Below are positions 12,215 to 31,955 of a stretch of DNA of 31,955 bases, piece after piece (within the stretch, counting starts at the first letter, position 1; every line of letters starts with the position of its first letter). The notes beneath the pieces were generated by a model. It was not told the origin of the DNA, did not search any database, and was given only the letters and a program-made list of their open reading frames with translations. The stretch comes from Podaxis mareebaensis (lineage: Eukaryota; Basidiomycota; Agaricomycetes; Agaricales; Agaricaceae). Where the stretch lies: contig JAEUWP010000183.1 of the NCBI GenBank assembly GCA_018524725.1, positions 1 through 31,955 on the forward strand, in the 5' to 3' direction. Position numbers and translations under genes: made by a program.

Positions 12215-12479
12215 ATTCATGACTGTTAACATCATAAACAAATGACATCTATGTACCCCCATCTGCTTTTTGCTAGCTTTCTGAGCACACTACTCCATTC
12301 ATCATTGTGTCCCTTAAGGAGGGGTTGTTCACCAATGCTAACACACTCTTCAAAGCCAAATTCTGAGATGGTACTTCCATTGTTGAATGGACAGTACAGA
12401 GATCTTTTTTTTTTTTTTTTTAAATCTGAGTTTATTGCAATAGACTAGCTACTACAAATGGGTGCACGATAGCAGTCCC
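12135..12479. repeat. Inverted 49-bp LINE ends bracketing an SMC2 fragment
   Basis: The arms are 12,135-12,183 and 12,431-12,479 (49 bp each, two differences, both CpG to TpG/CpA). They are the 3' ends of two LINE copies inserted in opposite directions, so the bracket looks like two independent insertions and not a transposon terminus pair. The interval between holds the SMC2 exon copy. Confidence 0.8.
12298..12404 (+). pseudogene. Duplicated SMC2 exon-15 fragment, CpG-stripped
   Basis: This 107-nt segment aligns without gaps to SMC2 positions 10,024-10,130 (the region just after Walker B, from FIVVSLKEG to the basic tail). I count nine substitutions. All six CpG dinucleotides of the parent are gone (to TpG, CpA or, once, TpA), and seven of the nine changes sit at those CpGs. 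It has no start, no splice sites and one C-to-T stop, so it cannot be functional. It abuts the poly-T (poly-A on the minus strand) of the LINE to the right. How it was copied here is unknown. Confidence 0.9.
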
Positions 12480-13395
12480 AATACTGAAACTAAGGAAAAG
12501 AAAGAGAGAAAGAAAATGAGAAGATGAAGAGAGCAGGAAAGATGGGCCTAGCTAGAGACAATGAGACAAAAAGAGAGATGAACTAACTTATTGAAATGTG
12601 AAAGATAGAAAAATAGAGAGAGAAAATTCGAAATAGAAGAGATGTGGGAGTGGGGAGCTACCTATGAGGCAAGATGAGAAAGAAAAACCCTTCAATGAAC
12701 ATCTGGGACTCCATTGGCAGTAATGTGTTCTCTCTGAGTGAGGCAGCAGGTGGCGAATTCCTCTTGAGTAAGGGGTCCTTGTATCTGGTCAGTGAATGAG
12801 AATGCAGAAGGGTTGCATTCAAGGAAATTGATGAGCCAGTAGAAACCATCACAGATTCCTACTGGGTAGTGAAAGTGTTTGCATTGGTCAAGAATGTGTT
12901 TGCATGTTTCTAATGGCTCCCTGCATGGGCAGGAAGTGATGTGGTGTCTGGGGAAGAAGTGCTGTTGGAAAGCACTGATGGGTGCATGGTTGGTGATGCA
13001 GCAGGTGAAGCACATGCATAGTTGGGTGTCTTGGCTGAGGGGTGAATTCAACCAAGTTCCCCCTTTGGCATATTTGGAAAGGAGAGGTTGCTTGGCTGGA
13101 TTGACAAGCAGGAGCCACAAGTGACCACAGTATGAGGGGTTGTTCATGAGGAGATGCCACTTGTTGAGGCATTTCTTGGTGTAATGGTTGTGAACAAACC
13201 TGAGGGATGTGCAGTATGGCTGTTGTCAATTATTGGTGAGACAGAGGGACTTTGCCAACTGGTGTGCTTGTAAATGAATGGACCATTGAGCAGATGATGG
13301 GATGGACCAGAAGTGGACATGGTTGAGAGGAGAGGAAGAGAGCCATTGGTGAAGGAGAGGTGCAACTGTGATGGAGTCTTGATGTGCACTGTGGG
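12405..13395 (-). mobile_element. 5'-truncated non-LTR retrotransposon (LINE), decayed
   Basis: On the minus strand this is the 3' part of a LINE: poly-A tail (poly-T at 12,405-12,420), 3' untranslated region, then the end of ORF2. The frame 13,147-12,692 has the terminal hallmarks of mushroom LINEs with RNase H: KYAKGGTWLN, then ITNHAPISAF, then a cysteine-histidine cluster CPCREPLETCKHILDQC, then FLECNPSAFSF. A second frame just upstream (about 13,390-13,150) reads as the RNase H end, so at least one frameshift or stop separates them. Reverse transcriptase and endonuclease are missing. The inferred 5' truncation is near 13,395; I found no clear target-site duplication at that side. Confidence 0.8.
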
Positions 13396-13990
13396 GGCTA
13401 TAAGAAAATAAATGTTTAGCAGAAGAGATTGAGTCTGTAAAAACTACAATTGAGGAGATGTTGAGAGATGAGGCAAGAGAAATAGAAGAAAATAGTCTGA
13501 GATGTAAAGCATACAGTTCAGAGTCTGAAGATGTAACTTCACCACAAGGGTGGACAGAAGAGGAGAGAACATTTGTGGGAGAGGAACCAAAAATGAGAAA
13601 TGTGGAGGTGGCAGAGAGGGAAGAATTGGAGGGAATGGAGCCATCTGTAGCTACAACAAGAGAAACAGGAGAGGAAAAAGAAAGGTCCTGAGCTCAGGAT
13701 GCATTTGTAATGTGGAGTGCCATAGCACCTTCTTTTGAAGGGCTGGGACACTTGATGAACTTGATTTGGTTGCTAAACAAGTCCAGCAGACACTGGCCAG
13801 GTTTAGCACTAGGGTGGAGACACTGGAATTGGTCCATGACCAACTGAGTGTCTGAGACAAAGTTGAGCACTGTAGAGTACTGTTTAGTGTGATGGGCATC
13901 AAGAGGGTTGATGTCTTGCATGAGGAGTTTAAGGGGGTAGGAGGGAGGGAGGGTATGGAAACAAAGGGAATATCTCTTTGTGAGCTTGAA
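13396..13990. other. CpG-free transposon-like filler, unassigned
   Basis: No CpG is present in this stretch. The minus strand carries a frame over about 13,990-13,694 that looks protein-derived (NPLDAHHTKQYSTVLNF, QCLLDLFSNQIKFIKCP) but I cannot assign it to a family. The plus strand at 13,458-13,690 has a Glu-rich open frame that may only reflect purine bias. It probably belongs to another broken element lying between the LINE and the gypsy tail. Confidence 0.35.
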
Positions 13991-14735
13991 AAGATGTAAT
14001 GTTATGAATATTGCAGAGTCTGAGACCACTGAGGAGACCAAAGAGACTGAGGAGACCAAAGAGACTGAGGAGCTACCATTCAAGGAATGGGATCTGATGA
14101 AGTGCATGATGGTAAGTCTCTGGCAGGAGACAACAGAACTTAGGCAGACATTAGACTGGAAGATGTGTGAGAAAGTGGATGAAGCATGCTGGTATCATGG
14201 AGTATACTTCCCTTGCAATGACAACCTGTGATGAATGCTAAATTTATCATTTCTATCTTTAGACATTTTCTATTCCTAGGACTTGGTTAAGTTTAAACCT
14301 TTCTGTCATATTCATGTTGCATCAATTATGTTCACTCTGGCAGACTTTTACCTATATGCCTATATGCCTTATGCCTTCCTTCTTCTATGCCTTATGCCCT
14401 ATGCCATATGCTTTATGCTTTCCTTTTCTATGCCTTCCCTCCTCTAGTTCATCTTCTATGCTACATTTGATCTACTTCCTTAAGTAGTCACTTGGACTTC
14501 TATATGTATGCTGCTTGGACTTGTAGATTAGCCAAGTCTAATCTTAATGGTGTCTCACCTTTAACAGTGTTCTAACCAGTGTAGTCTTCTACCTGAGTTA
14601 ACTATTAACTATCTACATCTCTTCACCCTTGTCCAAGTGTCCTCTCTGGCTTCTCGTCAACATCTGTCCTATGGAGCATGCAATCTATACAAGTTCACTG
14701 CCTAGTACAATGTAAACAGCCACTTGTGTTACAAG
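13990..14735 (+). mobile_element. Gypsy family 1: 3' ORF tail plus LTR, plus-strand copy
   Basis: Positions 13,990-14,226 encode the tail of the family-1 3' ORF (TEETKETEE repeats, FKEWDLMKCMMVSLWQETTE). From TGTGATGAATGC at 14,227 to about 14,735 lies the LTR. The same order occurs in reverse at 15,505-14,832, so this is a second copy of the family in opposite orientation, cut off at its left end near 13,990. The exact inner LTR end is uncertain by some ten bases. TATGCC-type simple repeats occur inside it at 14,350-14,450. Confidence 0.7.
14022..14073 (+). repeat. 18-bp coding tandem repeat
   Basis: The unit GAGGAGACCAAAGAGACT occurs almost three times and encodes EETKET. The minus-strand copy of the same gene tail, at 15,440-15,485, has fewer units (EETKETKEQ), so the repeat number varies between copies. 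Confidence 0.7.
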
Positions 14736-14831
14736 GTTTCTTCTTTGGCTCACAACACCTAAGTTGGGGCCTATCCTTGTAAGAAGGGTGAGCAGAGGCA
14801 CTTGTCCTGTATGGGTCTGAAGCTGCTTGCT

Positions 14832-15294
14832 TGTTTAACCTCAGGTGGCTGTTCATGTTGTACTAGGCAGTGAACTTGTATAGATCACACACTCCATAGG
14901 ACAGACATTGACAAGAAGCTAGAGAGGACACTTGAACAAGGGCAAAGAGGATGTAGACACTTAACAGTTAACTCAGGTAAGAGATTATGCTGGTTAGAAC
15001 ACCATTAAGATTAGACTTGTCTAATCTACATGTCCAAGCAGCATACATATAGGAGTCCAAGTGACTACTTAAGGAAGTAGATCAAATGTAGCATAGAAGA
15101 TGAAAAGGAGGGCATAAGGTATAAGGCATATGGGCATAGGGTAGAAAGAGGAGTGCATATGTCCTAGGATGAAAGTCTGCTGAAGTGAACATAATTGATG
15201 CAGTACAAATATAACAGAAGGGTCAAAACTTAACCAAGTCCTAAGAATAGAAAAGTGTCTAAAGATAGAAGCAGTAAGTTTAGCATTCATCACA
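14832..15294 (-). repeat. LTR of gypsy element 1
   Basis: In element orientation it starts TGTGATGAATGC (plus-strand end at 15,294) and ends near 14,832. The start is shared exactly with the inverted copy at 14,227. The inner boundary is approximate because the copies diverge there. Confidence 0.6.
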
Positions 15295-15376
15295 GATCAT
15301 TGTCACAAGGGAAGTATACTCTGTGATACCAGCATGCTTTGTCTACCTTTTCACACATTTCCCAATCAAGTGTTGG

Positions 15377-16860
15377 TCAGAGCTCCATGGTTTCTTGCCA
15401 TAAGCTGACCATCATGTGCTTCATCAGATCCCATTCTTTGAATGATTGCTCTTTGGTCTCTTTGGTCTCCTCAGTGATCTCAGAGTCTGCAATATTTGTA
15501 ACATGATCCCCTTTGTAATGTTGAGTGTCCTCACTCGATTCAATGACTCCTGGTGATGTTTTCATCATCATAAGGATATTCATGCATTCCCTCTCCTGTG
15601 TTGTCCATGATGCTTTGGAGGGTGCATTCAATTGATCGAGCTGACTGTCATTGAGGGTGGATGTGTTGATTGGATGCTCTGGGGATGATGGTGTTGTTGA
15701 TGGCATAGCAGGAGAGGCATGGAGGAGATCTGTCATGGTATTTGTCAGTGAATCAAGGGCCTTGGATGTTGTCAGCAGTGGTGAGTCTTGCCCAAAGGAC
15801 AGTGTGGCCTTGGTGGTGGCATGAATGAATGGACAAAGGAGAGTTTGAGTCTCCTGATGATGGGGGTCAAGCTGCAGAGGAGGAGGGAGTTGAAAAGGAG
15901 AGAGCTGGGGAATCAAGAATCTGGGATCAATCATTTGTGGGAGTGCTAGTTCCTCATCTACTATCCTGCTGCCTGGCAGACTGTTCAGCAAGTCTAGTGG
16001 TGGCAAGTTGGGCTCTGTCAGTGAGGATTCTGGCATAATAGAAAGGGGGGCATGTTCTGATGGGATTAAGGAGACAGTACTTCTGGTAATGTCTGGGGGC
16101 ATAGTGGTGGCAGAAGGGGCAATAGTATCTTGGGCATTGATCTGCCCTATGACCCACATTGCTACATTGATAGCAGGTGGCATGTTGGTTGGATAGGGTG
16201 AGGATAGGGCTGTCAGAGAGAGGAGGTGCTGTATCTCCAGAAGTTCCTGTTTCAGTGTGTTGTCAATCCACATCATGAAGTTGCTTGGATACTGAAGGGG
16301 CTTCTTGGTTCCATCAGGGCAAGGGGTTGTGAGTAACATTGCCAGATCTAAGTCCAACTTGTGGGTGGAGAAAAGCAGATATGTCCTCTTATGCTTGCAG
16401 AATTGTGCAGTGGGCACCCAAGAGGTATCACCTTTCCTGATCAAGTCCTGGCAAGTCAATAACCTGAGTAAAGCAGGCACTGACTTTGTCAGCCAGTCTG
16501 TTAGCATGGAGCTGGCAATGTATTGCATCAAACCAGGTCAACCTGAAAGTGTCGAGTACTTCAGTTGGTTGACCACTGCACTCAAGAGTGGACCTTGCTC
16601 AGGAAAAGGAATCTTCATATAAAGATTTGAGTTGTATGGCAGCAGAAAGAGCAGCATCACTTGCTTCTTGTAGGGAACTAGTTGGAAAGGTTTGCCTTTG
16701 GGCACTTTGTGCTTCATATAGTTCAAACACCTGGGATATTTGGCAGCAGACCTCTGCGATGTCAGTGACTTGTCTTTGCAGCTCTTCATAGTGTAGGGAC
16801 TCTGGGGTAGAAGGACAATCTTCTGGCGAGGGTGTCAGTTCGTAGGTGAGGGGAGTAGGT
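15377..16860 (-). pseudogene. Element 1 3' ORF with tandem zinc knuckles
   Basis: This coding region follows the chromodomain of element 1, where many retroelements have nothing. A helical N-terminal part (LHYEELQRQVTDIAEVC, about 16,795-16,740) leads to a CCHC knuckle CYQCSNVGHRADQC (plus-strand 16,175-16,134) and directly to a second cysteine-histidine cluster CPFCHHYAPRHYQKYC. A Ser/Pro/Thr-rich region and the tail EITEETKETKEQSFKEWDLM follow. The longest open frame (16,531-15,377, 384 codons) is in a different frame from the knuckles, so at least two frameshifts exist. The knuckles suggest nucleic-acid binding; a Gag-like or RNA-packaging role is a guess. Confidence 0.6.
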
Positions 16861-17034
16861 GGAACAGAGATGAGAGTCTATGATGATTCTTGAGTAAAAG
16901 AAGTGTGGGAGGTGGGAGTGGTTGGGTAGTCAGTTGTGGTAGTGTTGTTTGAAGTGATAGACATTTGAGTAGCTTGAGACTTAGTAAAGGTTGTGTCACA
17001 GTTTATAAGCATTGAGGAGGGTCTTGGAATTGTG

Positions 17035-17300
17035 CAGGTCTGTCAAATTTTGCCAGGTTCATTCTGATTCTGGGTATCCCTTCCAATGCACTAGAAACTC
17101 TAGTCCTTGTCTTTTGGTATAATGGTGCACCACTTTGGCTTTGACTTGCCATTCTTCTTCTCCTTGGATGAGGTCAGGTGGGGGTCTTGAGAAGTGTTTA
17201 CCATAAATGTCATTTTCAGTGATGGGATAGAGGTATTGGATGTGGAAGACATTGTGTATTTTCTAGCTCTTTGGGAGAGATAGCTCATAGGATATGTTTC
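17035..17300 (-). pseudogene. Element 1 chromodomain
   Basis: The minus strand reads GLEFLVHWKGYPESE, a TGA, then TWQNLTDLH, the core of a chromodomain (the VHWKGY aromatic strand and the helix after TW). Chromodomains at the integrase C-terminus guide chromovirus insertion to modified histones. One stop lies inside the domain. Confidence 0.75.
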
Positions 17301-17469
17301 CATGTTTCCTAATAACAGTGAATGGGCCTAGTCAATGGGCAGTGATTTTCCTTGACACAACCTGAATTCATAGGTTTTGAGCATTAAGCCAAACTTGCTG
17401 GCCAGGTTCTATTTTTGGTAGTGTGCACAATTGTGTCCATTCTGTCATAATCTTGCATGAAGTTTCATG

Positions 17470-18500
17470 TGCTATTTTTGCAGCTTCTCAGATATTGATA
17501 ATCCAGTTCTTTCTTTCTTTGGCTGATAGGGAGTTCATTGGAGCTAGCTTGGTAGGGAAGGCTTTGAGCAGGTGACTGTATATTAGCTCAAATGGGGTTT
17601 GTTGGCAATTGGCATGTGTCCTGGAGTTGTGGGAGAATTTGACTAGCAGGAGGTGTTTGGGCCAAGAGTGGGGGTTTTGGGTGCAATAAGCTGACAGGTA
17701 CATCTCGATTTCCTGATTAAACCTTTCAGTTGATCCATCTGATTGGGGGTGATAGGTGGTAGAGGGGGCATGATCGATATTCAGCTTCTTGAACATAGCT
17801 TGAATTGATTTGGCCATAAATTGAGGATCTCTGTCTGAAATGATTTTGTTGGGAATTCCTATGTGAATGAACACATGCTTGATCAAGATATCAGTGATTT
17901 GATCAGCTTGGCAGATTTCAAAGTGGGGACTATGATTATCCCTTTCATAAGACTGTGGTCCACCATGGACAATATTGCATCATAACCATTGGAATCAGGG
18001 AGGTCTGTAATGAGGTCCATGGACATCTGGGCAAAAGGCCATGATGATTGGGGACCTGGAATTGGTTGTAGGGGAGGCTTCAAGGGTTGTTGATTGATCT
18101 TAAATTCCTGGCAGGTTGGGCAACCTTTGACATAGTTTGTAATGTAGGCACATATACCAGGCCAGGTGACATATTCTTGAAGTTTCTGAAGGGTTTCAGT
18201 GACTCCAGGGTGTCCCATAGCTGGTGCATCTGCAATAAGCACTTCTTAAGTGCAGAGTCCATGGGGAGTTGGATATGACCTTCTTGATCCAATTCTATGG
18301 TTCCATCTTTCCCTTTTTGGGCTTCTTTCTCAGCATCAGGGTCTATGATGTTGATTTCATCATTTTCTCCTAAATTAGCCAATTTCATGTTAGCATTTGT
18401 AAAGTCACTAGCTTGAAACTTCTCTAGCAGAACGGCCACTTTGGTGGTTTCGAGTTCTGTGTCTTTACTGGTTGAGGTGTGGTCTGGTCTTCTAGACAAA
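17470..18500 (-). pseudogene. Element 1 integrase (DDE) with H2C2 finger
   Basis: The zinc-binding region reads GHPGVTETLQKLQEYVTWPG and then GCPTCQEFK. The catalytic core has MSMDLITDLPDSNGYDAI (first Asp), IISDRDPQF (second Asp region) and DGSTERFNQEIEMYL (Glu), so the DDE residues survive. The reading frame changes near 18,240 and 17,885 and stops occur, so no intact enzyme is encoded. It lies between RNase H and the chromodomain, as in other chromoviruses. Confidence 0.85.
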
Positions 18501-18905
18501 GTATTGGCAGTGCAGTTCTTAGAGCCAGGGATATGGCAAATCTTGATCTTATAGGTGCTGATTGTAGTGGACCATTGAATGGTTCATCTTGAGAGTTTTG
18601 ATGGCTTGGTCCAGTGGATAATGTTGTCATAATCTGTCTATATAGTGGTCTTGTAAGGTGATCCATTGATGTAATGACACCATTCTTGTAAGGCACAGAT
18701 TATGGCCAGGAATTCTTGTTCCAATGCATGGTAATTCCATTCAGCTTTGGAGAATGGCTTGGAGTAGTAGAAACAGGGGTGCAATACTCTGTTTGAGTCT
18801 TTCTGAAGGAGGACTGCCCCTGAAGCATATGCAGATGCATCAGTTTGAATTTCAAATGGTTTGGAGGGGTCCAGAGTGATAAGGACAGGTTCCTCCAAAA
18901 AGCAT
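18500..18905 (-). pseudogene. Element 1 RNase H domain
   Basis: The frame 18,898-18,638 reads ITLDPSKPFEIQTDASAYA (first catalytic Asp), then YHALEQEFLAIICALQEW (Glu) and, past a TGA, TDYDNI (second Asp). It degrades the RNA strand of the cDNA hybrid. Catalytic residues are kept, but the frame is broken by stops and followed by CHIPGSKNCTANTLSRRPD, the usual linker to integrase. Confidence 0.85.
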
Positions 18906-19797
18906 TGTTTTAATTTTCTAAAAGCATCATCAGCTTCTTTTGTCCAGCAAAAAGGAGTATTGGCCTTTTTGAGCAGAGTGTTGAGGGGTAGGGACAGGTG
19001 GGCATAGTGCTTGATGAATTTGTGATAGAAGTTACAGAACCCAATGAACTTCTACACATCTCAGACCATCTTTGGGGTAGGCCAGTCTGCAATCCCTTTA
19101 AGTTTTGCAGGGTCCATTTTGAGTTCATTTGGGGAAATGATGAATCTGAGGTAGGTGAGGGTTGTCTTTTCAAATTTGCATTTCTCAGGCTTGAGGTACA
19201 GATCATGCTTTCACAAGATCTTGAATACTTCTCAAGTCATCTTCCTTAGTTCAGCTTTTGTTGGGGTGTGGATGAGGATGTCATCCATGTAGACAATGAC
19301 TTTGTTTTGCATGATGAGGGGAGTGAGGATGGTATCCATCATGTTTTGGAAGGTGGTAGGGCTGTTGCACATTCCAAAAAACATGACTATTGGTTTGAAT
19401 AATCCTTGATGGGTATGGAATGCTCCTTTCCATCAGTCTTCTTCCACGATTCAAATGTTGTTATAGCTGAGTCAAATGTCTAAGGCAGTGAAGTATTTTG
19501 AGCCTCAAAGTTTATTGAGTATGGACTGGATGGAGGGGATTGGGTAGCTGTTTTTGACTGTATAGTCATTGAGGTAGTGGTAATCCTGACAGGGCCTAAG
19601 TTTTCCATCTTTCTTTGAGAAAAAGAAAAATGGAGAGGCCATAGGAGATTTTGAGGGTCTGATGTATCCTTTCACAAGGTTTTCTTTGAGGAATTTGTCA
19701 AGTTCCTTTTCTTCAGTAAGGGAGAGTTTGTAGGAGGGAAAAGCCTTTGGAACAAAGGATTCCTTTGTTTTGATCTGATGGTCCCATTGTTGAGCAG
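18905..19797 (-). pseudogene. Element 1 reverse transcriptase
   Basis: Visible motifs: [20 protein letters not shown] at the N-terminus, [39 protein letters not shown] and the active site VYMDDILIH (YMDD at plus-strand 19,291-19,280). Between these I read four TGA codons within about 80 residues (19,430-19,510), at or next to positions where the family has arginine, the result expected from CGA-to-TGA change. The sequence begins at the junction with the element 2 LTR. Confidence 0.88.
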
Positions 19798-19799
19798 GA

Positions 19800-20064
19800 T
19801 GTAAGCCTACTGAGGCTTACTTAGAGCTTAGACCTTAAGTTCACACTGACATACAATAAACCTGATGTATTGGGATGTACATAGTGTAGGTATAAGGTCA
19901 GCTGTCATGACAACAGCTGACAATGAGAATATAAGGGATATTTTCCTGATGGATTAAGTAATCCATCAGGGTTAAGTGGACAGCAGGAATTAAACAAATA
20001 ATTAATACAATATTGATTAACAAGAAAAGGAGATGGCCACAATAGTAAGGACTTAACCCTTACA
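19800..20064 (-). repeat. LTR of gypsy element 2 (265 bp)
   Basis: It begins TGTAAGCC and ends CCTTACA on the plus strand, giving the canonical TG...CA ends within a 6-bp inverted TGTAAG/CTTACA. In element orientation it is preceded by a purine-rich GGGGTGTG (20,065-20,072), a plausible polypurine tract. Both ends are themselves small hairpins (19,801-19,820 and 20,045-20,063), and a hairpin with 12-bp arms sits inside (19,945-19,970). The left neighbour CAGGA (19,795-19,799) would be the target-duplication candidate, but the partner side is not in the window. Confidence 0.7.
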
Positions 20065-20234
20065 CACACCCCATTGAGACCATAAAGTATGGTCAAGAGT
20101 TCCAATGCACAAGTAATGAGGTTACTTGTGGTGATGAGCAGAAGACAGGGACATGTATAGTGCCCAGTCAACAGTGAGGTTTAAACAAGGTGATGGATCA
20201 CCTCGTAGGGGAAGCAGGGTTTGAGTTGACTTGA

Positions 20235-23200
20235 TCATGAGGGTGACAAGGATGAATGTGAGTAGGAAGAGGCAATCAATGAGGATTCACTAATGATGTC
20301 TTGAGAGGAGGAGGCAGAGGCATTGGCCTCAGCCAGAACAGTGATGGGTAGGTGGTCAGATGCAAGGGCAGAAGTGGTGGCCTCAGTCATGGTTGTGTCT
20401 GATGGGTGATGTTTGGCAACATCAGGGGCAGATACAGAGGCATTGGCCTCTATCATTTGGGTGTCTGTTTCAGTAGCCATTTCATAGGAAACTGCAGGTG
20501 CTGACTCATTGAAGGTTAGTGTGAGAGGGTGAGTCAACCACAGTTGGGAAGGGGGTGGCTCCAGCAGGTGCTGAGGGTAGTCATGGTTCTGTAGGAGCCA
20601 GAAGAAGGGCAATGCCCCTGCTGGTAACCATCTATGGGGAACAAAATGCTCCCCTTTCTCTTGTTGGATGTTCTTGTACTCAAAGTACAAGAACTGGTTG
20701 AGGTCATCATCAGTGGGATGTCTCCACCCATCCCACTCTGGAATTGCTGGTGGTTCATGGTACCAGTCGAGGTATTCCACCCAGCGGTTGTCATGTTCAT
20801 TGTACAGATCATGGTGAAGTTGGTCACCATGATAGGAGTGGTTCAACCACCACAACCTGAAAAGATAAGCATGGTCTACCCAAGAAGTGGGTATACCATT
20901 ACAAATAAGGGTGTGAGCCATGTTGTTGAGGCTCAAGTTATGTGCAGCATAGGAGGTCATGTCTAGGGGCCATATTGAAAATACAGGCCTGTTTTGTGAG
21001 GAGTAGGCACATTCTTGTGGAATGTGACTGTTATACCTGGCAATGAGTTCCTGGTATAAGTTCAGAGTCACAATGAGGATAGCAAATAGCCTCATGAATT
21101 TCTGCGAGGTGCTCTTGTCAGATAGGCTCAATGCTCAGCCCAAACTGTAACTGAAGATACAACAGCAGTGGACAAGTCTTTGCCATTTGAATGCAATGCC
21201 ATTGTAGGCATTGTGGGTATTAGGATTTCCATGGATGAGGAGATATTGACCTAAGAGGTCAATATCAAAAAGCTGAGGGCTGGTCAGCATCAGGAGGCCT
21301 TTACCCTCATTCTGTTTGAGAATGTTCCTAGTGCTGTGATCTTGCACAGTGCACAGAATGGGCTTGAGCCTGGTCATATATTCCCATTGCATCCCAGGCA
21401 CCAGGAAGTTGGGGTTGTACCCCTCGAGGTTCAATATGAAGTCCATAGCATCATCATGATGCTCTGGTATGGTTGAGGTTGCAATGTTGTGCAGTTCTCA
21501 GAGTAGGAAGTATGCCTTGAATCTGCTGTAGATGTTGACATGGCAGTTATTCATGAACTACCATAGTCATATGACTTGTCTCAGGGTCATTGGTAGACCC
21601 CAACCTGCGATGTGGTGCACTGTGCCCTTCTTGTTGCTGTGCATGAACTCCCTGTCTTGGAGTTCAGTGTTGGTGACAAGTCAGGCATTTGTGCCTGCAA
21701 ATACCATGTTTATTCACTGGCAATAATATATGTCATGCAACAACATTTCTCTCATGGAGTTGTCATGTTCTCTGATACCAGGCTCGGTACCCCAAAGTCC
21801 CCAGAGGTCAGGAATTCTGCCTCCTCATCCAATGAGGTTGGAGATGCTGGTGCAATCATCATCTCCAGATGATTGTGCTTTTTGGTTTTTCTTGTTTTTC
21901 TTATGACAATTCCTTGATGAATTGTCATCTTCATTGCTTGAGTATTCCAGTCCCAAAAGCCATTCCTCTGGGTCATCTGGACTGTATTGGACAAACTTGT
22001 GGTGGAGGTAGATTATGGGTTCTGGTAGGAGATTTCCTGGTGGGTGTACCAGGATAGGTTGGCTGAAGGAGAGTCCCTCAAAGAGGGACTCTGATGGTAC
22101 AATACTGCTCAAGGTCAGTTTCATTGACCTCAAGGCTGTGCTTGTCGAGGGTTTGTGCATGGGGACATCAATATCCCCAGATGGTACTTCCTTGATATAG
22201 AGTAGGGTGATGTTGGCCAGGGGTGGTGGTGGCCGATGTGATGATGATGTAGCTGGTGGTGGTGAGGGTTGGTGGCATTGGTGAGGTAAGGGTTTTACCT
22301 CATTGCCCATACATGGTGTTGGGGTAGTGGGGTCTTGTGGGGTGCTTGGCACCCCCCATTGAGATGACATTGTTGATTGAGATGTCATGCACCATTTTGC
22401 AGGCTGTTCTTCTTCTTGGTCTGACTTCTCACTCAACTGTCATTGCAGGTTCAAGACCTGCCTCTGCAATAGGCTGTTTTATCCTTCAAGCATGATGAAA
22501 CAGTCTTGTAAACTGCAGAGCTTTGTTAAAAGCTCCTTGATAATGGCATTGCAGCCAGCATGTTTTGAGCTGGTGCTCAGCTCAGATATCAGGTCTATGG
22601 GTAGACCTGCCTCATTGAGTCAGTTCATCAGCTCTTGGACATATTGATTGTCCTCGAGCTCTATATCTACAACCCTTTGCTTTCCTTGAGCTTTTGAGGA
22701 AAGCACAGCTGGTGCTGGTTCAGATGGGTTCTGTTTACCCTTGTCCTTAGAGGATGAGGGTAGCATGGGTTTTTGCACTTTGCTCCTTCCTTTGGCTGAG
22801 GTGGCTGAGGGAGGTCAGGACAGAGGAACATCATTCCTCCATGCATCAGTTGCTGATGATGTTGTTGGGGCCAGCATCATTGGTCATGTTGTTGTAGCTG
22901 GCTGATCTTGGGTCAGTGACTGTGATTGTTGTGGTGTGGGCACTGTCTGTTGGAATGGCATGAATGGTTGTTGGATGAGTGGCACTGGGTAATGTCCATA
23001 CAGTTGTGGAAAACTGTACATGTGTGGGGAGGGAGGAGGGTAGAATGCAGGGTACAGGAAACCCTGCATGAACTGTGGAGGTGGCAGAGGCATCGCATGT
23101 AAATGTGATGGGTCCAGTTGGTTTGGGCCTTGTGGTATCGAGCCCACAAGGTTAGATAGTAGTGCTTGCTGGGCAGCAAGTTGCTGCCCATTGTGGTGAA

Positions 23201-23468
23201 GAGCTAGGATCAGGTCGGGTGATATATCCATTGCCCTCCCCCCTTTGAGGCCCATTGGAGGGCCTCCAGGTTGTGCAGGGTGATTCATGTCACCCTGTGC
23301 TGATGTGTGTTGTTGGTTTTGCATGTGTTGCAGTTGTTGTGCATCCATGGTAGTGGTGCTGAGGTGAAGATGGATTAAAGTTATTTGTCCCATCTCTGTG
23401 TTCCCAAACATTGGGAACATGATCCTCAGGGTTGAGTGTCCAATTTTGGACACCATCAATTTTTCCAT
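20235..23468 (-). pseudogene. Element 2 post-chromodomain ORF, about 1,080 codons, unknown
   Basis: Four open segments (23,468-22,884; 22,436-21,825; 21,446-21,135; 21,131-20,235) share one frame and are separated only by stops; the three I checked (22,884, about 22,440 and 21,135) are TGA. In order: a Gln/Pro/Met-rich part (QLQHMQNQQHTS, MPLPPPQFMQGFLYPAFYPP); an acidic-basic linker; a globular-looking part (MDFILNLEGYNPNFLVPGMQ); then a Trp/Tyr/His-rich part (SWVDHAYLFRLWWLNHSYHG, WVEYLDWYHEPPAIPEWDGW) and a Ser/Thr/Ala-rich tail. It is not an obvious envelope: I see only one weak hydrophobic stretch (LFAILIVTLNLY). I do not recognise a domain. It may be a separate ORF starting near the chromodomain stop or a fusion. 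Confidence 0.65.
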
Positions 23469-23498
23469 GGATAGTCATTGACTGATCCATGGTAGCTG

Positions 23499-23756
23499 TC
23501 AGATTGACTTAGCACCTTTCAGCTCTAGATACCAATCTAGAGCTGCTAGGTCTTTACAATGGCTATATGGCTCCCAGGTCGTATCACCTAGACTCCAGTG
23601 GACTTGGAACTCTGCCTTGCCATCATTTGTGAAACAATGACTGATGATTTCATTGACAAACCATTCATGTTTGTTGTCTATGCCAAAGTCATAGGGTTCC
23701 AGTTTATTTTGGCTTGGGAATAGTGCATTGTCTGATGCATTATAGGGCCAAAGCAA
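23499..23756 (-). pseudogene. Element 2 chromodomain
   Basis: The frame reads EWFVNEIISHCFTNDGKAEF, then VHWSLGDTTWEPYSHCKDL and ALDWYLELKG, a chromodomain of the mushroom gypsy type. It ends in TGA, with another TGA shortly after, before the C-terminal ORF opens. Confidence 0.85.
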
Positions 23757-23780
23757 TGATATGTAGAATATCAGGTGTAT

Positions 23781-24800
23781 TCAACATTCCTGCAGGGCTG
23801 GTGGTAGCTCGAGATGGTAGTTAGACATCTCAGGTTTGGCTTCCAAGACCTTAAAGGGTCTGATGAACTTTGGGCAGAGCTTCCAAGCTCTGCCTTTTGG
23901 TAGGTTTAGATTTTTGGTGGAGAGGAACACCAGGTCTCCAGCTTTAATGTCAGGTTCAGGTCCTCTCCTTTTGTTTGCCTGGTGGGTTTGGAAAACCTGT
24001 GCTTCTATAATGGTGTCATGAGCAGATGCCAAGTTCATCAGGGCAGCTTCAGCAAATAGTCTAACACCCTTAGGGGGTGTTAGGTCACCCTATATTTCTC
24101 AGATCATACTGGGCATGTATCTGCTGTTCAATTCAAATGGTGCATACCCAGTAGTGGCAGATATACTTGAGTTTATAGCAAACTTGGTCATGGGTACCTT
24201 GTCTACCCAGTTTTTTTGGTCATGGCTGACTATTGCTCAGAATATCTGTCTGATATTCTGGTTCATGCAGTTGGTCTGCCCATCCATTTGTGGGTGGAAT
24301 GATGTGGACATTAGGAGCTTAGCTCCTAAAATTTTATGGAGTTCTACCCACCAAACAGAGGTGAACTTTGAATCTCAATTGCTAATGATCAAGCTGGGGA
24401 GGCCATGCAGCCTCATGATTTCTCATAAATATATCCAGGATAACTTGGATGCTTTCATCTGCATATGCACTGGGATAAGGTGTACCATGCTAGTCATTCT
24501 ACAAATGATGACCCAAAGGTAATCAAAACCCTTGGATTCAGGGAATGGACCAATGAAGTCCATTCTGATGGAGTCCCAAGGTTTGGTTGGGACCAGTAGT
24601 GAGTGTAGTTCTCCAGAAGGTTTCATATTCAAGACCTTCGAGCATTGACATATCTCACAGGTTCTACAGAACATGCATGTGTCTTTGGCTAATCTTGGCC
24701 ACCAGTACTACCTTCGGAGGTACTCTGCTGTCTGTTGGTCACCAAAGTGACCAACGATCTTGTGAGCTTTATTCAGAAGCTCTGTAATTAAGGATTGATC
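23781..24800 (-). pseudogene. Element 2 integrase
   Basis: From 24,800 down: an H2C2 region (KAHKIVGHFGDQQTAEYLRR, then CRTCEICQCSK), core start WDSIRMDFIGPFPESKGFDY (first Asp), WVIICRMTSMVHLIPV, then EIMRLHGLPSLIISN, a TGA, DSKFTS, and the C-terminal domain PDIKAGDLVFLSTKNLNLPK with KLCPKFIRPFKVLEAKPEM. Two TGA codons fall where the family has Arg (before EIMRLHG and before DSKFTS), and the Asp expected just before that second stop reads Asn. The enzyme is dead. Confidence 0.85.
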
Positions 24801-25399
24801 ATTGGGAATGCATACTACCTCCCATCCTTGGGGGGTAGTTCTTCAAATAATACTGTTATCGTTGATGGTAAAACCACTGTATTTCTCAGGTGCTTCAAGC
24901 ACCACTGAAAATACAGGGTCAGATGCATATCCCAATGTGATTGTTTTTGTCACATCAATTGGGAGCTCCATTGGAGCTTCAGTGGTGACATTACCCATTA
25001 ATGCGTCTCCCAGTGTTGGGGACTCGATGATTCATTCTTGTGGCTCCTGTTGAGCAACCTGTCTCTGGGCTGCTTCTTGAAGCTCATGAGCTTCAATTTC
25101 TTGTTCTTCCTGCCATTTGTGCAGGCAGGTGCTTCAATGCAATGGTCACTTGACCATTGCCTTGACTCTGTCGAGGAGATGCTCAATCTCCTCAGCTCAT
25201 TGTAGAGGTAAGTCTTCACAGTGAGGATCGATTCTGTGATTGACTTGGACATATTCTCCAGGAGAGTGTTCCTCTCCTGGAGTATTGCTTTCAAAGTAGC
25301 GAGACAAGCAGTCTGCTACTTTATTTCATTCTCCTTTGACATATGTAATGTCAAAGTTAAAGTGTGATAGATAGTCCATCCATTGTCATTGTCAGCTAG

Positions 25400-26600
25400 A
25401 CAATTACATTTGAGTTTTGAAAAACTCCAGTGCCTTGTGATCCATGATAACATGGATCCAGTAGCTGATGAGCTTGTCCTCCCACTTCATTAGCACTTCT
25501 AAAATTGCTAGTGTCTTGAGTTCATGCACAGCATAGTTCTGCTGTACTGGGGTGAACTTCTTGGACATGAACCCTGCTGGGTGGCAGTCTGCCCAGGTGG
25601 GTCCTTGTCCATACATAGCTCTGACACCTGTCTTAGAGGCATTGCAGATGATCTATATGGGTTCTCCAGTTCTGGGGTCTATCGGTTTGACAATAGGGGT
25701 CTTCTCATAGATCCTCTTCACCATGTCAAAGCAACACTGGTGAAGGGGTCTCCAATGGAATGGGGTTCCATTCTGGGTGATTGTGAGCAGTGGCCCAGTG
25801 TATGCAGATACATCTGGCAAAAAGTTTGCCAGGTAGTTGATGAGTCCAATGAATTGTTGGACATCAGTATAGTTTCTGGGAGTGTGCCACCCCTGAATAC
25901 AAGTCAGTTTGTCTTCATCTGGGTGTATCCCTTGGTCATCAATAATATGACCAAGGCAGTTGACACAATCTGCATACAGATTGCATTTGGATTGTTTGAC
26001 ATATAACTTGTGTTCATGCAGTTGCTCGAACACAAGTCATAGATGATCTTCATGTTCATCTATTGAGTCAGAGAATATGAAGATGTCATCAAGGTATACA
26101 TGTACACATATACCTATGACATTGTGAAATATAGCAGTCATTAACCACTGAAAGGTTGCAGGGGCATTACAATCCCCCTGCTGCATTATATTGCTGACAT
26201 ACGTGCCAGCAATTGTGGCAAATCCTGTTTTGTCTACATCTTCCAGATGTATTCAGACTTGCTTGTAGGCATCAGAAAGATTGATTTTGGATCAATATTG
26301 CACTTGAGCGATGTCTTCTTGAATGACATCTTGGTCTGGCAAGGGTGTGGCATCCTTGATGGTGTTTTCATTTTGTTGTCATGCATCTATGATGGTTCAT
26401 AGTCAACTGTCTTTCTTTGGGATGCACAGTAACAGTGCTGCTTGGGAGACATGTCATGGCTCCCACCATTTTGTGTTCACATAACAGTTGAGTTTCTGGT
26501 GAAACTCCCTGTGTAGAGATTGAGGGCATTGAGGAGTGAAGTAATTGTACTTCTTATTCTCATCGATGAGGTTTATTTCATGATTTACTTCATGAAATGG
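25400..26600 (-). pseudogene. Element 2 reverse transcriptase and RNase H
   Basis: The reverse transcriptase active site reads YLDDIFIFSDSIDEHEDHL (YLDD at plus-strand 26,096-26,085) followed by TGA, then LHEHKLYVKQSKCNLYADCV, LGHIIDDQGIHPDEDKLTCI and FIGLINYLANFLPDVSAYTG. The RNase H part reads ICNASKTGVRAMYGQG, FTPVQQNYAVHELKTLAIL and VIMDHKALEFFKTQM. The family has CDAS and HELE at the first two sites; here they are CNAS and HELK, both explained by G-to-A changes that remove catalytic residues. Upstream of YLDD the fingers region (26,100-26,600) is recognisable only in pieces between stops. Confidence 0.85.
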
Positions 26601-27299
26601 TGGTAATTTGTTGGGAGGACCTTGCAAGATGTCCTTGAATTTGCTGAACCACTGCTGGCACAGAGTCGGTATGTCTTTCTTGGAATACTGATCTTGTCAC
26701 TCAGGGTGGCAATTCCTCTTTTCAGCATTGATACAAGTGTTTTGTATCTGCATTTCTGATTCATCTTCCACTGGAAGATGGGTGATAAGCATACTGCAGA
26801 GTTGATCTTGTACCATTTTATCAGGGTAATGTACCCTGATAAACTCCTGGGTTTCAACTATGTCATTGAGGTTGGGTTGTGTGAACCCAGTTGATGTTGG
26901 TAGTTTGTCCCCAGGACAATGCATTTCCCATATGCTGCAGACCATGGTATTCCATTCTGCAGGCATTTGGGGGTTGTAATACCACTTGAACATTGGGTTC
27001 TGAGCTGGTCTGTCTATCAAATGAGACTTGTATCTTGTTTTTTGTGGTCCATGAGGGGCATTTTGTCCCTCTTGATTTGGTGAAGGAGGTGCTTTCTCCT
27101 TCAGTTTGTTCTTCTTGGATGAGACCTTGTGTTCTTCTTGACCCATGTCCCCCCTTTGAGAGTTCATGGAACTCTCGACCTTTTCTAGGAGGTGACAGCT
27201 ATTATGGGGTAATGTTTCCCCTTGGGAGCTTTGTTTGTCATCTCAAACTGCTTCTATGGATATTTGATGGACATTGTCCCATCAAACATCCTCCACAAG

Positions 27300-28085
27300 T
27301 CAACTTGGCTTGTTTTTGTCAGTTGCACAGTGGCAGTGCAGGTGAGTATCTGATTCACCAGTGAAGTTTGCTACTTCTATGGTTTTGCTTCCAATTCTGA
27401 CTTCATTCTTGATGAAGTCGAGGATGACATTGTTCACACACATGAATGGCATACTGATTATCATGTCATAGCAATCAAAGTTCACTACATCTACATACAT
27501 ATGGGTATGTATGTTTCCAATGGTGACATTTACTGTTGCTCCATACTTGACAGTGGATCAACTGCCCACTGTCCCCAGTTGCAGTGTGTGAGGGTCTAAT
27601 AGTTTGTTGACCCTGATGCCAGCTACTTGTGCAAACATGGGGGTGATGCCAGTAGTTGTACTACTAGAGTCCCACAGTGTCCAAGTGTCAATACCATTGA
27701 CACTGATGAGAGTGGTGAGACATTGTTTCTCACTGAGGGAGGCTTGGGGTCGAAGGATTTTATCCTTCTCTTTATGGATGGTAACATGATGTACCCTTAC
27801 TTTGTGGTCTGGTTTCTCACTGGGCTTGACAGTGAGAGTGTCGATGACATCGAAGTCATTGCAGTCTTTGTTGTTGACATCTTCTGCATTGCTAATCATG
27901 GTGGTGAAGTTGTATTTGTCATCAACATCAGATCCATAGTCTGATTCAATGACTTTGACTTGTACTAGTTCATCTCTGTTTGACAAACTAGACTCTGGTT
28001 CTTCTTGGACCTCAGTGTTGTCATCTGAGAGTGAGTCCTGTTCAATTTCTTCAACTTCTTGTTGAAGAACTTCTTTGTCGTTCAC
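27300..28085 (-). pseudogene. Element 2 aspartic protease
   Basis: A charged acidic lead (VLQQEVEEIEQDSLSDDNTE) precedes the retropepsin core ISVNGIDTWTLWDSSSTTTG, then ITPMFAQVAGIRVNKL and, after a stop near 27,555, FDCYDMIISMPFMCVNNVIL, the second retropepsin strand set. The usual catalytic Asp-Ser/Thr-Gly is Asp-Ser-Ser here (GGT to AGT), so the enzyme would be inactive. It cleaves the polyprotein in related elements. Confidence 0.8.
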
Positions 28086-28089
28086 TGGA

Positions 28090-30446
28090 ATGACTGTGTG
28101 TGCAGCTCGTACATAGCTGTGTCATTTCCCCTTCTCTGGGCATTCTTGTGCCCAGTGACCATGTTTTCTGCATTCATAACAAGGCCCTTTCTCTGTGGCC
28201 TTGTTGCCTTGGATTGGCTTCACAGGTGCTCTGTTTTGTACCTGGGGTTTAAATTGAGCCTTGGGTTTCTGTTGTTGAGGTGGGGGTCTTGACAGTCACT
28301 TTGGTGGGAAGGTGTTTGAGGGTTGCCTTAGCTTGTGAGCAGGAATACAATCCCATCCTGCAGATATGCAATAAGGTACCCATGCAGTCCTCGTTCTTGA
28401 TTCAGCTGTGGCAGGTTTCTTTGAGAAGCCTGCAGATGGTTCATGTGATTGAGAAGGTTTCAACACCTTCTTGAAGAAAGCACTGCTTTGCATCTGATTC
28501 TCATAATCAGCTGCATGTGCCATGAAGTCCTCAAGTTGATTCATCTCAGGAGAAAGTCCTCTATTGAACATGAGGAAGTGCCTCATGGTTTGCAGGAGAC
28601 CTTCCAAGAAGGTCTCAATAAGAGAATAATTGTCAGGGTGGATTGCCATGTCTTGTGAATAACCCAAGATGGCATTGTAATAGTGTTGAATCCCTTCTTT
28701 GGGATTATACCTGACCCCTTTGAGGCTCTCACAAGCCTCATGCATTGACATCAGTCTGATGAATCTGTCATAGAGTGCCATAATGATGCTCTTGAGTGTC
28801 CAATCATATTTACTACAATCTATACTAAGTACATGATGAACGAACATATCCTTCACCTCTCCAATGAGGTAATATTGGAGGGTTAGGATTTGTAGTTGAT
28901 CCATAACAGGACTCTGTCCCCCTAGTCTCTTCATGGCGAAGTCAGCACAGAGACTTGTTATAAATGACAACAAGTCTCTGAATCAGTGACTTCCACCATA
29001 TGGCTCTAAGCTCTTTTCTGTGGGGAGCTTGTTCAACAAAGGTTTATAACCTTCAGGGTACTCAATTGGTTGCATGAGGTATTGGTTGATCATTCAATGT
29101 AAACAATCATACATGAGGTTATTGTAACTCTGAATGGATTGTATGATCCCCAGAGTTACTGACTTGTCACATGCCTCTCTGACTGGAGAGTATTGATGGG
29201 TCCCTCAGTTCAGCATGGGGAGTCATGAGGTGGTGTACACCTCCTGCTCCTCTTTTGTATCATCTTCTTCCTCTCCTTCTTCCTCTTGGACAGGAGGAAG
29301 ATTTTGGAGGGGATGTAGATTGTATAGCAGGGGCAGATTTTGCCCCTGCAAGGATGGTTGTTGGGGTGGGGAGGCCATTCTGACCATTTTGCAGGTATTA
29401 ACCATTTGAGGTGTCTTGAGAGGGCCTCCAAAGAACACACAAGTAGCTGCCTTTTGCTCCTCATGTTCCAACATGGTGGCCTCAATGGGTATATGTCCAT
29501 TGAACCTAATATATTGGTCATCTATCAGAGATGACCCATGGGTGTGGATGTCTTCATTTTGCATTCATTGTAGGGTGACCCAGTTGCTCCACTTATCAGC
29601 ATAAGGGGTTCATTTAGCCATAGGCAATATGAACAGGGTGCTTGAGGCTTGGAATGAGCCAGTGTTCATAGGAACACTAGTGGCAGAAGGTAGCTTGGCT
29701 TTAACATTTGATGTTGAAGCCACTGGGGATTTTCCACTGGCTATGGGTTTGGCCAATGGTGATCCCATAATTTCAGGATTCATTGCAGGGTAGTTACTAC
29801 CCTGTGCCATTGTTCTTGGCGATGGTACACCCATTGGTCCTTTCCCTTTGGGAGAAGGGATAGGGGGTAGTCAAGGTGACCAATGTGGGTTGAGGGTAGT
29901 GATCTGACCCCAGGGGTCAGGTTGCATTAACAGGGGAGGCAGTGGTCAGGATTGTGATGCCCCAGTGGTTGGGGCATGGTGTTGCAATTGGTTCATGAAG
30001 GTATCATTTCCTGGGATCGTCTCACTGTCTGTGATGGTGGACCCATCAATGGTGAAGTGTGCAGCCCTTAGGCCATACCCTTGTGCATGTCATCATTGTG
30101 CACTGAGGCACTCATTGTAAGCTTGATCTGTTTCCCCTGGTTTCCTGGGCACATGTAAATGTGCCATAGCTTGGGCAGTATTCAATAAAGCAGTTAATGA
30201 GGGAGATGGATGGCATTGGTGTAATTGAGGCATTGCAATGTGGAGTTGTAGTTGAGGCATTGCCAGTGGTCTGTTGTTATTGCATTGATGGTGGTGCTTG
30301 TGCACTGGGTGTTGTTTGGCCCTCTTGATTGCTTCGTCAATTTTGGTGTTGAGGGAATCATAGGTGATCCCATCATTAGTGGAGTCGAGGATGTGCTTGA
30401 GGTACTGTTGAGTAGGTTGTATTTTATATACACTGTGCATGGGCAT
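28090..30446 (-). pseudogene. Element 2 Gag with CCHC knuckle
   Basis: The N-terminal parts (30,446-30,093; 29,834-29,610; 29,564-29,223) are low-complexity and acidic (PPVQEEEGEEEDDTKEEQE). The capsid-like part (28,973-28,296) reads FAMKRLGGQSPVMDQLQILT, YDWTLKSIIMALYDRFIRLM and MNQLEDFMAHAADYENQMQS, typical of retrotransposon gag in mushroom gypsy elements. A knuckle CYECRKHGHWAQEC (C-x2-C-x4-H-x4-C) lies at plus-strand 28,190-28,149 and is followed by a TGA. All segments share the frame of pol, so Gag and Pol look like one polyprotein in the ancestor. Confidence 0.8.
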
Positions 30447-30704
30447 AAGGTCAGTTTGTCAACCTTCCTTTCTCAGTAACCACCACCTCAAATCTCATGG
30501 AACAGTTATTCATAGTTCAAGGAATAAAGCTTTCAGTTCTAAATCACTATAGCAGAGTCCAAAGGCCCTTCAGGTGTCACTGGAGCTCTGAACAAGGCTG
30601 CTTCCAAAGTATTTCATCATCATTGTTCAAATGCTAGTTTGGCACCTTCTTCTACCCTCCCCTGAGCCACTTCTGAGGGACCATTCTTCAAACCTACCAG
30701 CTCT
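30447..30704. other. Junction without recognisable gene
   Basis: I see no LTR, tail or coding motif between the end of the element 2 frame and the plus-strand ORF. The 5' LTR of element 2 would be expected near here on a complete copy and is absent. Confidence 0.4.
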
Positions 30705-31955
30705 GTGAGCTTCATTCACAAGCCCCCCTCACCCACCCCTTCTCTGGGTACTAAACAATTAATTTCCACTGATCAATTACTCTCAAATGAGGCTTGTAAA
30801 AGCCTCAAAGTCACTGACAATGATGACACTGCTTCCTCAGTCCACTTGGCTGAAGAAGACCAACAAGATTCAGAAGGAGTTAGTACTCCTCAATCCCTTC
30901 ATCCCTCTCTCACACCAGTTCACGAGGAACACTTCATGTCTCCTGAGATTGCACCATCATCTCACTGTGCCCTCACTGCCTCCCAATCCATTGCAGCCAC
31001 TCATGGATTTGTCCCCCCAACTCCTGGCACCACTTGGGATGAGTCCCAACCTTCAGACCCACTTTCCACTCTCCCAACCTTCACTCCTATCTCCCCTCCT
31101 CCTATTCCACAGCACCAAGAGGCTGTGCAGCTGTCCTATGGAACCAATTGGTCAGTGGTTCATAATGCCCTCAGTGACATCTTTGCAGACATTGACATCA
31201 CAAATTCCTCTGATGCCAAAGGACTTGACATCCTTACAGCACTCATGTCATTCATGTCCAGTTGGTTCTCTTCCTGGGCCAATAATGGAGGGGATTTCTC
31301 CACATTCAAGGGCACTCCCTCCCTCATTAATCTTCTTCAAACAATTGCTCACTCAGAACAACTCTGTAACAAGGCCATTCCTTTTGGCAACCATAACATA
31401 TGCCTCTATGATGCTATCTCAATGCAGTTCCCCCCAGCCCACACCCTCTCTCCCACCCTGACCCCTATGTCAACTAGTCATTGCCAAGAATGTTGGGCTG
31501 AAAAAGCACTGGCCATATCTTTCCCTTCCCCTGAAGACACTACTAGGCCTCCCCAGAGCTCTTCCATTACTCCCCCTGACATCACTGGGAATCCCCAAGA
31601 TTCAGACTTGCAATTCGCTAAAGACACAATGTGAGCAATTGCTCTATCATGTCTTCCCCCACCCAATTTGAATAAACCAGGTGAGTCTTCAGGCTCTAAT
31701 GTTGATGCTGAAATGCTCCCCCCACCTCCCACCACTGTCACCCTTCCTGAAACTAAACCTGGAGCTCAAGACTCTGGGAAAGTTAACCCACCCCTCAGCT
31801 CATGGTCCACCATCACTCAATGGGCACCTTGTAAACCAGTAGCTGCCCAAGTTCAGCATAAGCCTATCATCGCTCCCACCTTCCCTCCCCAGGCCCCTTC
31901 TAAACCTTCTCCTCCCTCCTCCACTCCCCCCCCTATCAACTACAAGACCTGCCCC
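30705..31955 (+). pseudogene. ORF1/gag-like retroelement frame running off the right edge
   Basis: A Ser/Pro/Thr-rich plus-strand frame stays open from 30,705 to 31,634, meets one TGA (31,632-31,634), and then continues in the same frame to the end of the window. A more compact middle part (YGTNWSVVHNALSDIFADID, LTALMSFMSSWFSSWANNGG, FSTFKGTPSLINLLQTIAHS) is flanked by proline-rich linkers. Low complexity around a small helical core fits the first ORF of a LINE or a gag, and the far end resembles the decayed minus-strand ORF at positions 1-300 in style. No catalytic domain is in view. The frame has no obvious ATG at its upstream end (it opens with GTG), so the true start is unclear. Confidence 0.5.

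Follow-up and report, generated by a model that had tools for sequence, protein, structure and literature searches.

Why should one retrotransposon of a genome be full of short perfect palindromes? The question is raised by a stretch of 31,955 nucleotides from the fungus Podaxis mareebaensis (assembly GCA_018524725.1, contig JAEUWP010000183.1, C73 in our own numbering), and this whole stretch is called the window here. It carries two adjacent elements, element 1 and element 2. Element 2 is a hairpin-rich Gypsy element on the minus strand, running from 19,800 to about 30,457 and truncated at its 5' side. According to the original prediction, made from the letters alone, element 2 holds more than 50 perfect inverted repeats with arms of at least 8 bp where about two are expected by chance, and element 1 is nearly free of them. 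The analysis places element 2 in a clade of Gypsy long terminal repeat (LTR) retrotransposons; in the replicating lineage, the genome of these elements consists of dense and local hairpins with exact Watson-Crick pairing.

Hairpin excess and its distribution among Gypsy lineages

Perfect inverted repeats with arms of at least 8 bp and loops of 0–12 nt were counted along the window. Element 2 has 61 of them, and 16 have arms of 10–12 bp. In 200 dinucleotide-preserving shuffles of the element the mean was 2.72 and the maximum 9. An order-2 Markov control over 19,701–30,165 gave a mean of 3.1 and a maximum of 8 in 40 sequences, against 62 observed. Synonymous-codon shuffles, for which loops were allowed to 14 nt, yielded 0.72 against 24 observed in L013, a copy with a little-decayed pol, and 1.58 against 26 in L001, the window's own 4-kb pol segment. 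Neither kind of shuffle reproduces the excess, and the predicted count was upheld. So was the near absence of hairpins from element 1 (12,001–19,799), with 3 inverted repeats against 1.67 in its shuffles; the host genes (2,001–12,000) have 2 against 1.8 expected. The two hairpins quoted in the original prediction sit where they were placed, and they encode LGHIIDDQG (found also in the matching protein P0001) and NGQQLAAQ. Inverted 6-mers were clearly in excess only at gaps below about 20 nt, so the pairing is local; direct and mirror 6-mer repeats showed no excess in the same scan. Chance, composition and coding constraint are ruled out as the source of the hairpins by the Markov, dinucleotide, codon-order and synonymous shuffles.

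Copies of the element were searched for with window positions 25,000–26,000 against the 36.95-Mb genome, and 40 of the 48 candidates were scored, so that copy numbers are lower bounds. There are at least 28 other copies at 84–93% identity (L026 and L029 only partial) and at least 11 further places at 70–73%. A sister family (family 2), 62–64% identical in DNA to the family of the window copy (family 1), is likewise hairpin-rich. In 29 of the 30 loci from the copy search 13–25 hairpins per 3–4 kb were counted; the remaining one, L029, lies at a contig end, matches over 422 bases and has 1 hairpin. Six more sister-family loci have 10–21 per 2.6–3.8 kb, and seven further loci at 67–77% protein identity have 11–15 per 2.6 kb. 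The other Gypsy lineages of the same genome are different. Thirteen of their loci, with a reverse transcriptase (RT) 32–39% identical, were taken from 88 other Gypsy places listed, and hairpins were absent from eight, single in four and three in number in one. In an RT tree of 35 rows, from which L042 was left out, the 11 hairpin loci need one change, with support of 100/99 subject to a long-branch warning. The hairpins are therefore far beyond chance and specific to the lineage of element 2 among the loci sampled. Outside this genome, RT relatives in other fungi, Hypsizygus and Sparassis among them, numbered 681 proteins, the best 120 of which were listed; they were found as proteins only, in which DNA hairpins are not countable. 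No RT relatives were found among viral contigs.

Some of the longest arms of the window copy exceed those of its relatives through changes common to none or one other copy. At 26,817–26,843 its arms measure 12 bp, but among 26 hairpins counted at that place 25 have arms of 7 bp. Arms of 11 bp at 25,256–25,282 are present in 2 copies, against 14 with arms of 7 bp.

The excess is visible in folding energy as well. In 350-nt fragments the window element folds 25.4% beyond shuffles on the sense strand (59 fragments) and 18.9% on the antisense strand. The values for four less decayed hairpin-rich pieces are 27.6–33.0% and 18.5–25.7%, respectively. Element 1 and three other Gypsy loci gave –0.5 to 3.4%, and the host genes –2.7%. 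A sense excess of 25.4–33.0% in five hairpin-rich pieces, missing from the Gypsy controls and element 1, favours a first explanation, genome-scale ordered RNA structure (GORS). It supposes selection on the genomic or messenger RNA for many local stem-loops whose places are free to turn over, with a benefit such as protection against RNA silencing or other forms of recognition, which has been proposed in the case of persistent RNA viruses. This explanation is the main rival of the one preferred below, though we consider it doubtful. According to PMC7642675, positive-strand RNA viruses with GORS share several features with element 2, namely local stem-loops throughout coding sequence, a large energy excess, poorly conserved places and paired sites that are less variable. 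The same paper gives SARS-CoV-2 a folding excess of 15% and names 23.4% as the top value known at the time among vertebrate RNA viruses. If confirmed, a cellular retrotransposon clade with an excess of 25–33% would lie above these 15–23%, although the shuffling methods differ.

A separate Gypsy group consisting of L051, L052, L056 and L046 (tree support 100/97; contigs C108, C104, C403 and C45) has a mild excess of arms of at least 6 bp, with z values of 3.8–6.2, whereas the other nine Gypsy loci gave –0.1 to 1.7 in the same test. The folding energy excess is 8.8% in L056 and 0.9% in L046. The hairpin property may be present in this group too, but less developed or of more recent origin.

Timing and upkeep of the hairpins

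When the hairpins arose can be read from CpG decay. The original prediction took the arms to be perfect despite heavy CpG decay and thus formed or homogenised during or after it. Among copies L001–L028 the observed/expected ratio of CpG runs from 0.02 to 0.99, and hairpin count does not track it: L013 (0.99) has 22 hairpins and L001 (0.10) has 24. Where both members of a mirror-image CpG pair were decayed, the outcomes matched in 212 cases and did not match in 195, which is chance (36 places, 24 copies). The mirror CpGs decay independently, so the claim of arms perfect despite decay was not borne out. Homogenisation or formation of arms during or after decay is ruled out by the same tabulation and by the CpG-intact L013, which is equally hairpin-rich. 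Since mirror CpGs decay independently and hairpin count does not depend on the CpG ratio, the hairpins arose in the replicating lineage, before insertion, and the arms drift apart afterwards. The spread of ratios also means that this genome holds side by side insertions that differ widely in age, or copies that differ in methylation.

It is hardly credible, then, that the hairpins stem from composition, coding constraint, homogenisation during CpG decay or an assembly artefact. The window copy is indeed CpG-depleted, and at some places, such as aligned site 2224, CpG decay itself made a stem perfect. However, the dinucleotide, codon-order and synonymous shuffles abolish the signal, many separate copies and the sister family share the hairpins, and the CpG-intact copy has them while CpG arms decay independently.

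Upkeep in the active lineage was examined with alignments of copies. L029 was dropped from the first alignment onward, L003, L018, L019 and L026 (partial or rearranged) from the pol alignment, and L057 and L076 (63–65% identical to the window) from the end-piece alignments. With the hairpins defined in one of three reference copies and 80 pairs of other copies compared, non-CpG pairwise differences amounted to 3.2–3.6% in arms, 5.3–5.4% at other sites and 6.5–7.9% in loops. At third codon positions, variants shared by at least 4 copies fell on 22 of 284 arm sites and 17 of 76 loop sites, and on 155 of 972 sites elsewhere; the hairpins in this test were those present in a quarter of copies, a choice that can favour quiet sites. 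Third codon positions in arms are thus half as variable as those outside hairpins. Hairpins of at least 7 bp shun the codon register with the least synonymous freedom, which held 5 of 42 in L013 and 6/41, 7/40, 4/33, 4/38 and 4/30 in five other copies, where one third is expected if registers are equal. The hairpins are built mostly via synonymous codon positions. The scarcity of shared third-position variants in arms and the avoidance of the constrained register both speak for selected RNA structure.

The two arms of a hairpin, which the original prediction proposed to compare between copies, change together. In four alignments spanning the element, with the outermost and innermost pair of each stem omitted, non-CpG changes on both sides of a pair leave it complementary in 65 of 72 cells, or 19 of 25 events. 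In the control with partners slid by 1–3 bases, 72 of 212 cells (24 of 91 events) pair. Cells are copies here, not independent events. In the pol of family 1 alone double changes are few, 9 cells being paired and 2 not, against 190 single changes.

Over longer times the hairpins move. Within a family 13–17 of 17–24 hairpin places are shared (four comparisons), but between the families only 2–5 of 17–22 are (seven comparisons), where chance gives 6–9%. Because few places are shared between families and many within, density is kept while places turn over. Conserved density with so few shared places is also found in coronaviruses, according to PMC7642675, and again suits selection on RNA structure. 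Comparison of the copies thus shows hairpins that are common to them, kept during replication, lost neutrally after insertion and re-placed over longer times.

Proposed template switching and its alternatives

As to the agent, our best guess, held tentatively and short of an even chance, is template switching during reverse transcription that perfects hairpins. The growing strand or the template would fold back at an imperfect hairpin, and the reverse transcriptase would then copy one arm from the other, so that mismatches would be removed and arms would lengthen by single bases. Changes damaging a protein would be purged. After integration there would be no reverse transcription, and the arms would drift apart independently. 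That polymerases turn imperfect inverted repeats perfect by switching template is described in PMC7202029. The stronger form of the proposal, in which the lineage's own reverse transcriptase rewrites the genome into perfect hairpins through a mutational drive to palindromes that is limited only by protein function and outlasts the divergence of at least two families, is somewhat less probable. Template switching is favoured by several features that fit it: the pairing is exact and local and shows no preference for G-U, the arms covary, the hairpins decay neutrally once inserted, and the property follows the element lineage within one host. Stem changes are mostly single bases. Covariation and a shortage of interrupted stems fit a passage from imperfect to perfect arms, without fixing the direction of change.

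Selection on sense RNA is expected to tolerate G-U better than A-C. Across all the tests on copies, no preference for G-U over A-C was found in stems. Non-CpG single stem changes gave 50 G-U against 67 A-C in family 1 and 32 against 31 in family 2, and 54 against 79 events over the whole element. Shared stem variants, summed over three alignments, gave 26 against 39. Interrupted stems gave 17 against 37, and 7:14, 12:19 and 7:11 under stricter limits. Pairs just outside arms are at composition level for both; just inside arms the counts are 13 and 54, with 5 and 4 in a small class of continued stems. Given the mutation rates of unpaired sites and the base composition, the expected G-U share is slightly below one half, so the lean towards A-C is not firm. 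Element 2 is GORS-like in its folding excess over the whole element, its lower variation at paired sites and its poorly conserved places, yet it is not filed as GORS, since the G-U expectation, which is our own, was not borne out. It also differs from the viral cases, as PMC7642675 describes them, in being an LTR retrotransposon with an excess of 25–33% (again with different shuffling methods) and in that its antisense strand gains about as much energy as the sense strand.

The gain is 5–9 kcal/mol per 120 nt, about equal on sense and antisense, which weighs against RNA selection. A null model was built in which synonymous codons were selected in silico to equal the local folding energy, with synonymous changes only. 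The element has 20 perfect stems, and simulated folding selection produced 4 (sense), 4 (antisense) and 5 (both strands). Under sense selection the antisense structure was too weak as well, at –1130 against –1278 kcal/mol in the element. With three seeds, perfect stems numbered 21 in L013 against 5.3 and 7.3 in the simulations, and 11 in L037 against 1.3 and 2.7, while interrupted stems numbered 9.0 against 6.0 and 6.3 in L013 and 3.0 against 3.7 and 3.0 in L037. Within this synonymous-only model, the stems of the element seem longer and more exact than folding energy requires.

The equal gain on both strands, exact pairing, covariation and an LTR that is dense in hairpins too would also suit selection for hairpins in DNA, be it the single-stranded complementary DNA (cDNA) made by reverse transcription or, in the form of cruciforms, the integrated copy; both strands would then count alike. 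We judge this unlikely. Neutral decay after insertion means that the integrated copy is not where hairpins matter, the arms differ in sequence, so that no shared protein site is evident, and we know of no function for dense cDNA hairpins.

Several results weigh against template switching. Other Gypsy elements also use reverse transcriptases yet lack such hairpins. Selection directly accounts for the slower change of arms and the register preference for synonymous freedom, whereas template switching needs a protein filter to do so. When the two pol families were aligned together, non-CpG double changes in stems were paired in 87 cases and unpaired in 82, beside 842 single changes. The percentage energy excess was higher on the sense strand in all five hairpin-rich pieces. 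On the sense strand A is frequent and G scarce in loops and flanks; this agrees with RNA folding and, for the loops, counts towards selected RNA structure, although some Gypsy relatives are A-rich throughout and have weak hairpins only, and this tempers the argument. Clusters of transversions that could have been copied from the other arm were looked for systematically and showed no clear excess: those equal to the nearby reverse complement were 6 of 451 in the 3' piece (controls: reversed 10, direct 12, distant 4.25) and 0 of 48 in the 5' piece. For the two pol families the counts were 6 of 85 and 5 of 40, where distant controls gave 3.0 and 1.0. Nor did any arm look overwritten relative to the sister family.

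Loop inversions, which speak for template switching, are few. In a sister-family hairpin with 11-bp arms the 3-nt loop occurs in both orientations (TCC/GGA), and in family 1 one 4-nt and one 1-nt loop differ by inversion, which makes three candidates in all. Decay of CpG to TG or CA is enough to produce two of the five flagged inversions (TGTG/CACA and one in a 10-nt loop) and most reverse-complement alleles, and these were rejected as evidence. Small inversions in chloroplast DNA, in which the loop sequence flips between palindromic arms, are comparable. They belong to organelle DNA; only three candidate flips were found here.

The original prediction named template switching or selection for RNA structure as causes. 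Both remain the leading candidates, but the simple form of each meets trouble, the one because no clear block copying was seen and the other because G-U has no advantage. A mixture, in which template switching supplies perfect hairpins and structure selection keeps part of them, would answer the fact that either model alone fails to account for one class of results. It is less economical, is inseparable from the single models with the present data and strikes us as improbable.

Related phenomena are known at a smaller scale. In quasipalindrome correction, as presented in PMC7202029, imperfect repeats are made perfect by copying one arm from the other; it is known in DNA replication at particular sites, whereas we propose it tentatively for a reverse transcriptase and a whole element. 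The nearest fungal cases in the literature searched, single or few functional hairpins, are the Conserved Hairpin Site of GalEa Copia elements and the palindromes of Ty3 genomic RNA. In PMC5445492 and PMC11381356 these palindromic hairpins of LTR retrotransposons occupy one or a few sites, unlike the whole-element property seen here. Among the papers listed in searches of the open literature, several of which gave the best 6–20, none concerns an LTR element with genome-wide hairpins, judged by title and the start of the abstract. The missing G-U preference leads to a testable question, whether genome-wide structure is always RNA-selected or can be driven by a polymerase via template switching, and the hairpin-free Gypsy lineages of the same genome are ready controls.

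Parts of element 2 and its neighbourhood

The limits of element 2 were set where identity with other genomic copies ends. The predicted span of 19801..30165 stood almost exactly at its lower end and was corrected at the upper one, and the element was assigned to the minus strand. The family of element 1 starts on the 19,800 side, and a different repeated sequence starts beyond about 30,457. The latter (window 30462–31900; similar places elsewhere 68–78% identical) adjoins the element and truncates it at its 5' side. The window copy therefore has a 3' LTR only and lacks the 5' LTR. LTR pairs of 265–270 bp were present in all three other copies tested that have both ends, with identities of 97.0% (C312), 97.4% (C287) and 91.3% (C279).

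Pfam matches of P0001 to RVT_1, RT_RNaseH and RT_RNaseH_2 indicate a Gypsy-type RT and RNase H, and the relative P0007 is named Ty3-G Gag-Pol by its source. Downstream of RNase H lies an integrase, for which Integrase_H2C2 scored above the cut-off and rve, at 24.2 bits, under its cut-off of 32.6. At the C-terminus of the tested L023 frame Pfam gives SH3_Tf2-1 and no chromodomain; the end is chromodomain-like by eye only. RT, RNase H, the integrase zinc finger, a Tf2-1-like SH3 and LTRs are common to element 2 and the chromovirus-type Ty3/Gypsy LTR retrotransposons of fungi, the class to which we take it to belong. The residues LGHIID are retained in L030 of family 2 even though the hairpin in this motif is absent there. 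The 3' half (window 19800–23500), made of the LTR and open reading frames (ORFs) of no known family, is the most variable region between copies and also the richest in long arms, with up to 12 hairpins with arms of at least 10 bp per 3.9 kb. The features are collected in Table 1.

Table 1. Features of element 2 in window coordinates
Feature	Position	Strand	Basis
Hairpin-rich Gypsy element, 5'-truncated	19800..30457	minus	Identity limits; 61 inverted repeats with arms of at least 8 bp
3' LTR, about 265 bp, several hairpins	19800..20064	minus	Analogy with copies on C312, C287 and C279
LTR hairpins	19897-19921 and 19945-19970	minus	Inverted-repeat scan
Hairpin in LTR, 12-bp arms	19945..19970	minus	Hairpin of at least 7 bp here in 12 of 13 rows of the 3' piece
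3' ORF, 298 aa, no Pfam match	20235..21131	minus	ORF list and Pfam
3' ORF piece, 203 aa, no Pfam match	21825..22436	minus	ORF list and Pfam
Hairpin in ORF 22884-23468 (NGQQLAAQ), 10-bp arms, 1-nt loop	23170..23190	minus	Hairpin of at least 7 bp here in 12 of 13 rows
SH3_Tf2-1-like C-terminal segment, approximate	23507..24098	minus	Alignment with L023; chromodomain-like end by eye only
Integrase segment, approximate	24100..25380	minus	Alignment with L023; Integrase_H2C2 in L023 aligned frame; rve below cut-off
RT/RNase H segment, internal stop codons in window copy	25395..26252	minus	Match to P0001; Pfam RVT_1, RT_RNaseH and RT_RNaseH_2 on P0001
Hairpin in RT motif LGHIIDDQG, 10-bp arms, 7-nt loop	25930..25956	minus	Present in family 1, absent in family 2
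Hairpin in ORF 26697-27167, 12-bp arms, 3-nt loop	26817..26843	minus	7-bp arms here in other copies
Hairpin at 5' end of ORF 28296-28973 (gag-like by position only), 12-bp arms, 9-nt loop	28948..28980	minus	Inverted-repeat scan and ORF list

Element 1, CpG-depleted in the window and without hairpins, is a natural control. Its region at 18600–19799 belongs to a family with at least 38 other places at 79–83% identity. At 13999–15504 it holds nested long inverted repeats, 79–91% complementary, which form an imperfect foldback of 1.5 kb. Further along the window, a direct repeat of 107 nt, 92% identical, joins 10024–10130 in the host gene region with 12298–12404 at the boundary with the repeats. 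Near the end of the host gene region there are two perfect inverted repeats, at 11300–11319 and 11947–11965 with arms of 10 and 9 bp, which are possibly transcription-end signals. The host genes include an F-box gene on the minus strand (2536–4860), which marks the host as probably a mushroom of the Agaricaceae: its product is 66% identical over 94% to a protein of Macrolepiota fuliginosa and 46–48% identical to proteins of Leucocoprinus and Agaricus.

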